Shown here: positions 38,487 to 41,099 of the stretch, piece after piece
How the letters are laid out: each line of letters begins with the position of its first letter
How positions within the stretch are numbered: position 1 is the first letter of the stretch
Assembly (NCBI RefSeq): GCF_003151075.1
Contig: NZ_CP029482.1
Location: 1,550,001-1,614,000, forward strand
Direction: 5' to 3'
DNA from: Pseudomonas sp. 31-12
GTDB lineage: Bacteria; Pseudomonadota; Gammaproteobacteria; Pseudomonadales; Pseudomonadaceae
DNA: 64,000 nt
Made by a program: the position numbers and the translations under genes
The notes under the pieces: generated by a model
The model's input: the letters and a program-made list of their open reading frames with translations, nothing else
The model's database searches: none
What the model was told of the DNA's origin: nothing

Positions 38487-38984
38487 TTACCACCAATATT
38501 TCCCGAAGTTTTCCGGATTGGCCCAGAACCGCGAGTTGAGCCAGTCGGGCACCTGTTTATAGTCAAGCAGATCGTAGGTGAACAGCGTCAGCACTTGATC
38601 GTCGCGCTGGAAGCGTTCGCTGGCCTGCAAGGCCAGGGAAAAGAAATCCGTCTCCAGCCAGCCGCTGGCGGGCAAATCCGCCAGCACCGCAATGCGACTG
38701 GCGTTCAGGTTACGGATCCCGCCTAACAGATTCAGACCGTCACGCTTAGGCAGGTGTTCAAGGCAATCGACCACCAGCGCCAGGTCAAATCGACGCGCCG
38801 CCAGTTCGGCCGGCAGTGGGCCGGGAGCAGCGAACGCCACGCAGCAATCCGGGTGCGCGAGCTTGAACGCCTCAAGCGCGGGAAACTCGCTGGCGCCGAT
38901 CAACAACAGGCGTGCGGGGGCGTATCGATCCAGCAAAGCGGCCAACGCCTGCTGGGGCGTGCGCGAAGAAATACCTGCAATCAT
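38487..38984 (-). CDS. DUF6231 family (methyltransferase-like) protein
   Basis: 165 residues. The middle part has an AdoMet-methyltransferase-like acidic motif [12 protein letters not shown] (about 72-83), and [16 protein letters not shown] replaces the usual glycine-rich motif I, so cofactor binding is doubtful. Matches the DUF6231 family I know from Pseudomonas; function unknown. First of a pair with the YchJ gene. Confidence 0.72.
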
Positions 38985-39105
38985 CAGAAATCCTCAATCA
39001 GAGCACCAAGACTAGCCTGCCCGAAGGTCCGGGCCTAGAGCGGGTTTGCACCAAAATCGGCGAACTGCCGTGAATGCGGGGGGAAACAGCGGTGGCCTAT
39101 TGCTG

Positions 39106-39173
39106 GCGGAGATTAAAACTCGGGTCTTTACTCCCTGAATCGGTTCTAAGCCGATCCCTCAGGAGAAAACTAG
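39106..39173 (+). promoter_or_regulatory. Leader hairpin covering the Shine-Dalgarno of the first OmpA lipoprotein
   Basis: After CGGGTCTTTACTCC (39121-39134) comes a stem: CTCC-TGA-ATCGG (39131-39143) pairs with CCGAT-TCA-GGAG (39151-39165), loop TTCTAAG. The 3' arm contains AGGAG, which is the SD, eight bases before ATG 39174. The pairing of the SD is seen directly. The same layout occurs in front of the second paralogue at 39901-39959 with different stem bases. Confidence 0.65.
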
Positions 39174-39869
39174 ATGAGCATAGTTCGGACAGCATTACCC
39201 TTGGTTCTGCTAACCAGTGTGTTGACTGGTTGCGCAGGTTTGCAGAAAACCGACTGGCCGACCTGTGCGGCGGTCGGCGGTGTCATTGGTGCCGGTCTCG
39301 GTGCGACCGAGAGTTCGGCATGGGCGGGGTATGGCGCGCTGGCCGTCGGCGGTATGGCGGCGGCGTATTGCTGGGTTCACGGTGATGGAGACGAAGACGG
39401 CGATGGTGTGCCGGACAGTCGCGACAAGTGCCCGGGTACGCCTCCAGGCGTGAAGGTCGATGCCGACGGCTGCCCACCACCGGTGCCTGCGCCAGTGGTC
39501 GAAGAGGCCGTGGTGGTCAAGGAAGAAGTCATTGTCATCCGCGATGTTCACTTCCAGTTCGACAAAGCCACACTCACGCCTTCCGACAAAGAGGTACTCA
39601 ACACCATCGCCACTCGCCTGAAACAGGAAGCCTCCACCGCACAATTGACCGTGACCGGTCACACCGACAGCGTGGGCAGCGATGCCTACAACCAGAAACT
39701 GTCGGATCGTCGTGCACACTCGGTGGTGGAATACCTGATTTCCCAAGGCGTACCACGCAGCAGCTTCGTGTCTGTTGCCGGTGCCGGTGAAAGCCAGCCG
39801 GTTGCCGATAACAAAACTGCAGACGGCCGTGCACTGAACCGCCGCACGGAAATCAAAATCAACCGCTAA
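39174..39869 (+). CDS. OmpA-family lipoprotein (TSP3-repeat linker), first of a tandem pair
   Basis: 231 residues. Lipobox LTGCAGLQ (Cys 20); a glycine-rich segment AAVGGVIGAGLGATESSAWA (about 33-52) that may sit in the membrane; a calcium-type TSP3 repeat DEDGDGVPDSRDKCPGTPPG (about 73-92); and a C-terminal OmpA-like peptidoglycan-binding domain (about 120-231) with TGHTDSVGSDAYNQKLSDRR. Anchors outer membrane to peptidoglycan. Shares all domains with the next gene, so the two arose by duplication; leader hairpins differ in sequence but not in design. Confidence 0.9.
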   Translation: MSIVRTALPLVLLTSVLTGCAGLQKTDWPTCAAVGGVIGAGLGATESSAWAGYGALAVGGMAAAYCWVHGDGDEDGDGVPDSRDKCPGTPPGVKVDADGCPPPVPAPVVEEAVVVKEEVIVIRDVHFQFDKATLTPSDKEVLNTIATRLKQEASTAQLTVTGHTDSVGSDAYNQKLSDRRAHSVVEYLISQGVPRSSFVSVAGAGESQPVADNKTADGRALNRRTEIKINR

Positions 39870-39900
39870 GCCCCATCCGCTCCGCGGCTTGTGCAGTCGC

Positions 39901-39959
39901 GGATGCGGGTCTTTACTCCTGTGTAACCGGTATGGGCCGGTAACACAGGAGCTTTCCAT
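39901..39959 (+). promoter_or_regulatory. Leader hairpin covering the Shine-Dalgarno of the second OmpA lipoprotein
   Basis: CGGGTCTTTACTCC (39906-39919) is identical to the first leader. CTCCTGTGT (39916-39924) pairs with ACACAGGAG (39943-39951), then CCGG with CCGG closes a TATGGG loop. AGGAG, the SD, is again in the 3' arm, eight bases before ATG 39960. The right arm has changed together with the left arm relative to the first copy. Confidence 0.7.
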
Positions 39960-40673
39960 ATGAGCGTTCTCACACGGACCGTCTTGCCGGTTCTGCTAAT
40001 AGGCAGCCTGTTGACCGGTTGCGCAACTCACAGCGATGGCACCGCCCCACTCAATCAACGCACCTGGCCGATCTGCAGCGTCATCGGCGGACTGGTCGGC
40101 GGAGGCTTGGGCGCGATTGAAAGTGCCGGTTGGGCAGGCGGTGGAGCAGCGCTCGGTATCTTGACCGGTGGCTTGATCTGTTACGCCCAGGACGGCGATG
40201 AGGACGACGACGGCGTTTTCGATCGACGTGATCGTTGCCCAGATACGCCCGCCAATACGCCTGTCGAGCATCATGGTTGCCCACTGCCGCAGTATCCGGT
40301 CAGCGTGAAACCGGTCGAACCCGTGCAACCCGAAGTCATCATCCTGCCCGGTGACGTGCTGTTTGCCTTCAACAAGTCTGACCTGAGTCCCTCCGCGCAG
40401 AGTCAGCTGGATGCACTGATGAGCAAATTGCAAAACGCCGATGTCGTGAGCATCAAGGTGATCGGCCATACCGACAGTGTGGGTTCGGATGCTTATAACC
40501 AGGCGCTCTCGGAGCGTCGTGCCAGCAGCGTGGCGGCCTATCTGTTGAGCCAGGGCCTGGCGCCGGACAAACTCACCAGTGAAGGCAAAGGCGAAAGCCA
40601 GCCGGTGGCCGATAACGAAACGGATGAAGGACGCGCGAAAAACCGTCGGGTGGAGTTGCACATTAATCGCTAA
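39960..40673 (+). CDS. OmpA-family lipoprotein, second of a tandem pair
   Basis: 237 residues. Lipobox LTGCATHS (Cys 21), glycine-rich segment VIGGLVGGGLGAIESAGWAG, TSP3-like DGDEDDDGVFDRRDRCPDTP, and the OmpA C-terminal domain with IGHTDSVGSDAYNQALSERR (about 165-184) and the terminal NRRVELHINR. Paralogue of the gene at 39174. An inverted repeat (40687-40720) follows the stop. Confidence 0.9.
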   Translation: MSVLTRTVLPVLLIGSLLTGCATHSDGTAPLNQRTWPICSVIGGLVGGGLGAIESAGWAGGGAALGILTGGLICYAQDGDEDDDGVFDRRDRCPDTPANTPVEHHGCPLPQYPVSVKPVEPVQPEVIILPGDVLFAFNKSDLSPSAQSQLDALMSKLQNADVVSIKVIGHTDSVGSDAYNQALSERRASSVAAYLLSQGLAPDKLTSEGKGESQPVADNETDEGRAKNRRVELHINR

Positions 40674-40686
40674 GCCCCGAACTAGA

Positions 40687-40720
40687 GCCGTCGGACAACA
40701 TTTTCGGTTGATCCGACGGC
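40687..40720 (+). terminator. Hairpin after the OmpA pair
   Basis: GCCGTCGGA and TCCGACGGC arms with a 16-base loop. No strong T run, so termination is only probable. Confidence 0.5.
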
Positions 40721-40820
40721 CATTCGGCAGCCTTCATGAAGAATTTTCTGTTGCCCTCTGGCTTATCCCTCGCGGAAGCCGTTACTGTGCGCGCAAAGAA
40801 TAATTCTCAATGGGGGGCGT

Positions 40821-41099
40821 ATGAAGGTGATTTGGGGGCTGGGGAAGTTGTTGACCCTGCTGTTCTGGCTGGTGGTGCTGGTCAATTTGCTGATGCCGTT
40901 TGTCAATCCGCTGCACCAGTTGGTCGATCTGGCTGGCGGCGTGTTGGCGTCCCTTCATCTGCTTGAGGCGGTGCTCTGTTTCCGCAGCCTCAGGGGGCGC
41001 GCCCACCCTTGGCGTGATCGCTTGAAGATCCTGTTTTTCGGCGTATTCCACCTGCAAACCCTCCCGGCTCCGACCGCATCGAAGGCTTCCCATGCGTAA
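40821..41099 (+). CDS. DUF1145 family small membrane protein
   Basis: 92 residues. Two to three hydrophobic helices (LLTLLFWLVVLVNLLMPF and GVLASLHLLEAVLCF), matching the DUF1145/YhhL family of small inner-membrane proteins. Function unknown. Stop overlaps the start of the collagen-like gene by eight bases, so their translation is coupled. Confidence 0.85.
   Translation: MKVIWGLGKLLTLLFWLVVLVNLLMPFVNPLHQLVDLAGGVLASLHLLEAVLCFRSLRGRAHPWRDRLKILFFGVFHLQTLPAPTASKASHA

Follow-up and report, generated by a model that had tools for sequence, protein, structure and literature searches.

The gene pair and its leaders

The window, i.e., the whole stretch of 64,000 nucleotides that was analysed, belongs to a Pseudomonas-type genome of 6.73 Mb and contains two OmpA-domain lipoprotein genes in tandem (Table 1). 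Both products exceed the cutoff of NCBIfam NF053612 (PA1041/Pba peptidoglycan anchor), which is 250 bits, and a lipobox LTGC is recognised by eye in the product of gene 1. The two genes have the same direction and are separated by 90 nt. The neighbour of gene 1 is a divergent gene, while the neighbour upstream of gene 2 is the co-directional gene 1. The 80 homologous loci retained come from Pseudomonas or Stutzerimonas throughout, and the region has no match in the plasmid collection. A DUF1145 gene lies downstream (40821-41099); of the 34 loci that contain gene 1 only, 21 have a tblastn match to it 3' of that gene.

Table 1. Features of the tandem gene pair and of its two leaders (positions in the window).
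Feature	Position	Strand	Remarks
Promoter 1, upstream box CTGGCG	39103..39108	+	15 nt before GTCTTTACT; profile of 22 diverged leaders, exact bipartite match
Promoter 1, proposed -10 region GTCTTTACT	39124..39132	+	predicted start ~39137-39142 (inferred)
Leader 1 hairpin	39131..39165	+	outer stem, which pairs with the SD, weak and variable; TCGG/CCGA of the inner stem mostly conserved
Gene 1	39174..39869	+	OmpA-domain lipoprotein, PA1041/Pba family, 231 aa; NF053612 353.8 bits
Hairpin H1, intergenic	39875..39910	+	followed by UCUUUACU; terminator-like; encloses the upstream promoter box
Promoter 2, upstream box CTTGTG (TTGTGC-17-TTTACT)	39888..39893	+	profile of 33 diverged leaders
Promoter 2, proposed -10 region GTCTTTACT	39909..39917	+	predicted start ~39922-39927 (inferred)
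Leader 2 hairpin H2, outer stem	39916-39924/39943-39951	+	contains the SD; folds, covariation, energies
Leader 2 hairpin H2, inner stem	39926-39930/39937-39941	+	ACCGG/CCGGT
Gene 2 SD AGGAG	39947..39951	+	paired in read-through RNA
Gene 2	39960..40673	+	tandem paralogue, PA1041/Pba family, 237 aa; NF053612 387.7 bits

A preliminary description of this DNA had pointed to an identical stretch before both genes, and to a Shine-Dalgarno sequence (SD) enclosed in a hairpin in each leader. The stretch CGGGTCTTTACTCC is indeed found at 39121-39134 and 39906-39919 and, at 0 mismatches, at these two sites only in the genome. AGGAG is located 8 nt ahead of each start codon (39161-39165 for the ATG at 39174; 39947-39951 for the ATG at 39960).

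Both hairpins are present as described, the fold of leader 2 being beyond chance and that of leader 1 marginal, as judged from shuffle z-scores in a short and in a wider context. Leader 1 (39121-39176) folds with -16.4 kcal/mol (z -2.0; 8 of 200 shuffles equally stable) and leader 2 (39906-39962) with -27.3 kcal/mol (z -5.1; 0/200). In the wider context the values are z -0.31 for leader 1 (95 nt; 69/200 shuffles) and z -2.2 for leader 2 (100 nt; 6/200). The H1 region (39867-39925) folds with -24.8 kcal/mol (z -3.1; 1/200), and the entire intergenic stretch forms two successive hairpins, H1 and H2 (-51.2 kcal/mol, z -6.2, 0/200). H1 was not called by a simple terminator scan. A search of Rfam over 38700-40900 gave three matches, all of them far under the gathering scores.

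Covariation of the two hairpins

The preliminary description had also considered the base changes between the two copies as covariation-like. Such changes are present between the copies, but the homologues support the outer stem of leader 2 only. In 61 distinct homologous leaders of gene 2, two-sided changes are observed in 9 of the 16 pairs of H2, i.e., 26 two-sided cells vs. 6.6 in shuffles, and none of 500 shuffles attains 26. Pairing cells amount to 87.0% vs. 84.9% in shuffles, and no slid structure exceeds 5 pairs or 13 cells. Clear examples are L144, L138, L080, L151 and L156. When the 3' arm of the outer stem is swapped among leaders, the value changes from -11.73 (natural) to -10.88 ± 0.12 (swapped; 0/300). 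The hairpin of gene 2 is thus a real RNA structure.

For the SD-pairing stem of gene 1, the same comparison gives -5.43 vs. -5.29 ± 0.16 kcal/mol, with 50 of 300 permutations as good, i.e., a difference that is not significant, in a test where the splitting of the arms shortened some of them (e.g., L052, L056, L162). CTCC is altered in 20 of 63 distinct gene-1 leaders, and the inner TCGG/CCGA stem is the part that is mostly conserved. The alignment of homologous leaders proposed earlier thus speaks for an SD-sequestering hairpin under RNA-level selection in the case of gene 2, and gives no significant signal for the SD-pairing part of the gene 1 leader.

H2 is tied to gene 2

After the stop codon of gene 1, no match to the H2 model was found in the 34 loci that contain gene 1 only, while the controls with gene 2 match in 9 cases out of 9; H2 is therefore tied to gene 2. 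Searches with the model R1, in which 150 first-look candidates were scored per genome (of thousands in most genomes), recover this locus in its own genome on both strands (4.0e-12 and 9.8e-4), the next best E being 0.79. Among 38 genomes, its own included, 13 have a match below 1e-9, each just before gene 2. A dispersed element is thus ruled out by matches confined, among these candidates, to the gene 2 leader.

A subclade that lacks gene 2 (L019, L020, L026, L028, L031, L033, L038, L040, L041, L043, L047, L050 and L053) has, just 3' of the gene 1 stop, a hairpin of the type CCCCTGTG..CACAGGGG that resembles the outer stem of H2. To judge from its sequence, it may be a shortened remnant of H2.

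Putative promoters inside the leaders

The exact motif GTCTTTACT precedes 73 of 77 gene-1 homologues (L003-L079, the exceptions being L068, L072, L078 and L079) and 14 of 14 in another set of gene-1 leaders. It must be noticed that the gene-1 leaders of alignment A2 were picked by exact GTCTTTACT, the four exceptions being omitted, so that its 100% reflects selection; the figure of 73/77 is unaffected. In diverged leaders, whose upstream parts share less than 75% identity with one another, a second box is found at a fixed distance, i.e., GCTGGCG for gene 1 (n = 22) and CTTGT for gene 2 (n = 33). Most columns of the spacer between the boxes are below 0.7 bits and a few reach about 1. Because this second box stands at a fixed upstream distance in both leaders, GTCTTTACT is most likely the -10 box of a promoter. 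The motif appears promoter-like also since it is found where the upstream neighbour is divergent (gene 1) as well as where it is co-directional (gene 2).

In the case of gene 2 the motif reads TTGTRC-17-TTTACT, and both boxes are present at the usual spacing in 52 of the 63 fetched gene-2 loci. The upstream box is located inside H1 and the -10 box corresponds to the U-rich tail of H1; the bases at 39875-39917 seem to belong to terminator and promoter alike. In L177, L080 and L178, a terminator-like hairpin (by eye) lies upstream of CTTGT and the spacing of the two boxes is unchanged; the boxes are therefore not merely parts of H1.

TTGTGC-17-TTTACT has the geometry of a sigma-70 promoter, but not its -10 consensus: an A is normally needed by sigma-70 and sigma-S at the second base, where TTTACT has T. 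A consensus scan (TTGACA/TATAAT-like, spacing 16-18) found no sigma-70 promoter. Elsewhere in the genome, the bipartite pattern has 34 matches at 2 mismatches vs. 40 for the reversed control. This lack of enrichment leads to the rejection of a regulon of the bipartite box, and thus no regulon supports the promoter.

With the -10 box at GTCTTTACT, transcription is predicted to begin about 7 nt after TTTACT, a point within the 5' arm of the hairpin. The anti-SD strand would then be missing from the mRNA made by the gene's own promoter. A start downstream of the hairpins had been named beforehand as evidence against control by these structures; the predicted start comes near to this for the native mRNA, and the function would consequently shift to read-through transcripts. 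Columns 14, 16 and 17 of H2 also have two-sided changes; they are located 5' of the start as centrally predicted, but only at the limit of the uncertainty of that position.

Accessibility of the SD

The cost of opening the SD was computed for RNAs with the full arm and for RNAs beginning at the predicted start. For gene 2 (85 distinct leaders), the median is 13.6 kcal/mol at full length vs. 3.5 from the predicted start; in the window the values are 14.6 and 4.7 kcal/mol, respectively. For gene 1 (68 distinct leaders), the medians are 5.3 kcal/mol with the full arm and 2.5 from the predicted start, the window having 8.0 (at 37 °C) and 2.4 kcal/mol.

The anti-SD arm, gene order and promoter boxes

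The context of the anti-SD arm, i.e., the 5' strand of the outer stem of H2, was counted in 63 fetched gene-2 loci (43 + 20) with about 2 kb of upstream sequence plus the window, i.e., 64 loci. The arm was considered as kept with at least 7 of the 9 outer pairs, a threshold chosen after the data had been seen. Since the highest value over 9 offsets is counted, an arm that is lost still scores 4-6. These loci are not a random sample. They come from: (i) diverged gene-2 leaders; (ii) known lost-arm loci plus others; (iii) a set made mainly of relatives of G145 gene 2. L231, L232 and L241, half of the six loci that lack gene 1, belong to the latter set and were picked without regard to the arm. 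The gene-2 leaders of L003-L071 were found by exact match and stand outside this count, and L258, found using the lost-arm pattern, is uncounted. In a set of 46 fetched gene-2 leaders, GTCTTTAC is exact in 28 and the remaining 18 were anchored by hand.

In 57 of the 63 fetched loci, a co-directional gene 1 precedes gene 2, with some 80-150 nt from its end to the SD; it is also upstream in the window. Of the 58 loci with a co-directional gene 1 upstream, 48 have kept the anti-SD arm, vs. none of the 6 without it (Fisher p 1.1e-4, phylogeny uncorrected). In these six loci (L173, L174, L209, L231, L232 and L241) a divergent DUF6231 gene adjoins instead, and the inner stem of CCGG type is retained in all of them (by eye). 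The upstream box is missing from its usual place in the first five, where the whole promoter region has therefore been replaced. L241 is thus the sole clean case: gene 1 is absent, both boxes and the inner stem are present, and the arm is lost.

The arm is also associated with intact boxes. Both boxes occur in each of the 47 fetched loci with a kept arm; the spacing is the usual one in 46 and one nt shorter in L237. Of the 16 fetched loci that lack the arm, 6 possess the two boxes at normal spacing. In L213, L216, L217 and L218, gene 1 is upstream, the -10 box is changed or unrecognisable and the arm is gone; L220 and L221, from the same tree group, have kept boxes and arm. Where TTAACT replaces TTTACT (L188, L226, L227) the arm is kept; L212, with TTTAAT, has lost the arm in the presence of gene 1. 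Gene 1 and intact boxes coexist with a weak arm in L210, L211 and L250, which perhaps represent an intermediate stage or plain exceptions, and with a partly degraded arm in L184 and L185.

On a tree of the upstream host proteins (62 rows, L218 and L219 missing), the absence of gene 1 requires 3 changes and the arm 8 changes; the former gives one independent pair on well-supported branches. These numbers are too small for a formal test, and the arm losses are few independent events.

A proposed role in read-through transcripts

These results lead us to propose that H2 silences read-through, i.e., that RNA reading through from gene 1 is silent for gene 2 while RNA from the promoter of gene 2 is readable; we give this reading a probability of roughly 0.55. 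It builds on the hairpin, its covariation, the energies, the bipartite conservation and the association of the arm with a co-directional gene and intact boxes. We infer the start site, the sigma factor, the occurrence of read-through and its silencing.

Each of the tandem genes would have its own promoter, made of CTGGCG (gene 1) or CTTGTG (gene 2) followed by GTCTTTACT, with a start in the 5' arm of the hairpin. The native mRNA of gene 2 would then bear ACCGG/CCGGT as a short 5'-terminal stem-loop and leave the SD more accessible. On the contrary, a read-through RNA coming from gene 1 would contain the full 5' arm and fold into the very stable hairpin, the SD of gene 2 being locked and untranslated; the terminator-like H1 just upstream would reduce read-through too. 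The paralogues would thus be translationally independent despite a common direction and a spacing of 90 nt. For gene 1, beside its divergent neighbour, the inner stem alone is steadily kept. As far as sequence comparison goes, an arm kept with its own boxes and an upstream gene, and lost, among the loci compared, without gene 1 or without a recognisable -10 box, is what such a silencer would predict. The 4.7 kcal/mol of structure over the SD that the predicted native mRNA retains counts against it.

In a broader form the element would be a genus-wide chromosomal insulator against read-through, in which about 75 nt accommodate the promoter, the anti-SD strand and a terminator-like hairpin. Gene 2 would be translated from the RNA of its own promoter only, and the element would be kept with a co-directional upstream gene and an intact promoter and lost if either is missing. 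We hold this generalisation tentatively, at a little under even odds. If the reading is right, then: (i) a phage T4 trick, i.e., a promoter within the anti-SD arm that silences read-through mRNA, operates at ordinary bacterial chromosomal genes; (ii) an operon-like order together with read-through in transcriptomes need not mean co-expression; (iii) two Pba-type peptidoglycan anchors are dosed separately. The element would be a compact natural insulator with a searchable signature, namely a -10 box overlapped by the 5' arm of an SD hairpin.

Other explanations

If transcription started further upstream, the hairpin would be part of every gene 2 mRNA and could be a regulated translational switch that an sRNA, a protein or a helicase opens. 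The gene 2 hairpin and its covariation are real, the SD is inside it wherever the arm is kept, the start is a prediction and the -10 box departs from the known consensus, which is in line with this possibility. Nevertheless, GTCTTTACT with a box 15 nt before it resembles a promoter starting inside the arm, no Rfam family reaches threshold, and with 14.6 kcal/mol to pay there would be almost no translation without an active opener. Occlusion of the SD by a hairpin, as suggested at the outset, is supported for gene 2, but an arm missing from all six loci without an upstream gene 1 is unlike a general switch, and we consider this explanation unlikely. Even less probable is that H2 serves the 3' end of gene 1 as a stabiliser or terminator, its overlap with the SD being a by-product. 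Such a role would agree with a hairpin kept, among the fetched loci, only with gene 1 upstream, with the terminator-like H1 and UCUUUACU, and with the CCCCTGTG..CACAGGGG hairpin of some gene-1-only loci. It is disfavoured by the absence of H2 after gene 1 in the 34 loci without gene 2; moreover, L212, L213 and L216-L218 have gene 1 but no arm, and H2 has no U-tract.

The inverted repeat could also be a DNA operator over the promoter rather than an RNA structure, since it overlaps the proposed -10 box and start, a frequent place for repressor binding. That is very improbable: complementarity is conserved despite sequence change, unlike most DNA-binding sites, and G-U exceeds A-C (8 vs. 3 in the outer nine pairs, counted in 49 rows, i.e., without the 12 lost-arm rows), a weak difference in the direction of RNA. 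The RNA thermometer of the preliminary description is the least credible of all. It would suit an SD placed in a hairpin, and leader 1 is moderately stable, its opening costing 8.0 kcal/mol at 37 °C, but the SD-pairing stem of that leader has no significant covariation. Leader 2, with an opening cost of 14.6 kcal/mol, is too stable for a thermometer: the cost is 17.7 kcal/mol at 20 °C, still 13.6 at 42 °C and 11.9 at 50 °C, i.e., the SD would stay shut across growth temperatures. Control by temperature was thus rejected on the opening energies.

Comparison with known systems

Transposase mRNAs of IS10 and IS50 escape translation when transcription enters from outside, since the read-through RNA folds back over the SD. 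Silencing of gene 1 read-through by H2 would be similar in that the SD of a read-through RNA is folded back, and different in that mobile element protection is concerned there and a housekeeping gene pair here. The accessible text of PMC5006887 holds no discussion of the IS10 fold-back.

The closest arrangement is that of phage T4 gene e (lysozyme), I-TevI, segB and Aeh1 mobE, for which the accessible portions of PMC3014915 and PMC2988022 describe a promoter in or beside the 5' strand of an SD-sequestering hairpin: long upstream transcripts fold and are poorly translated, while short ones without the 5' part are translated. As far as these portions go, the likeness concerns a gene 2 SD in a stable hairpin whose 5' strand lies ahead of the predicted start. 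The differences are that the phage late genes are timed against early transcripts, while a tandem duplicated envelope gene of Pseudomonas chromosomes is concerned here, and that here a terminator-like hairpin overlaps the promoter, covariation extends over many species and the start is predicted. SD sequestration with an embedded promoter is established for phage T4 gene e and I-TevI; here it would guard one PA1041/Pba paralogue of a tandem pair on a bacterial chromosome.

The E. coli ompA mRNA has a 5'-terminal stem-loop that stabilises the mRNA. A stem-loop at the extreme 5' end is also predicted for the native mRNA of gene 2, the role of stabiliser being that of the E. coli one. For Yersinia ompA, the part of PMC8245352 at hand reports an RNA thermometer, i.e., a structure of the SD region that opens at host temperature; the likeness is a structure of that region before an OmpA gene, and the difference is a leader 2 far too stable to open. 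No such leader was described for these genes in the literature searched, including the accessible text of PMC7947798 and PMC12569750, subscription journals being thinly covered. The latter source reports, in the part at hand, a lacZ fusion upstream of P. aeruginosa PA1048 (OmpA-domain) whose values tend to be lower in stationary phase, one strain showing a difference of about twofold. This result has no direct bearing on the present leaders, the orthology of PA1048 not being established.

A group of variant loci

In L210-L213, L216-L218 and L250, a hairpin of H1 type is observed, with the loop TTGAGAAGT or TTGAGCAGT (by eye), while the -10 box and the arm are decaying to a variable extent. It looks as if this group were turning into a simple operon.
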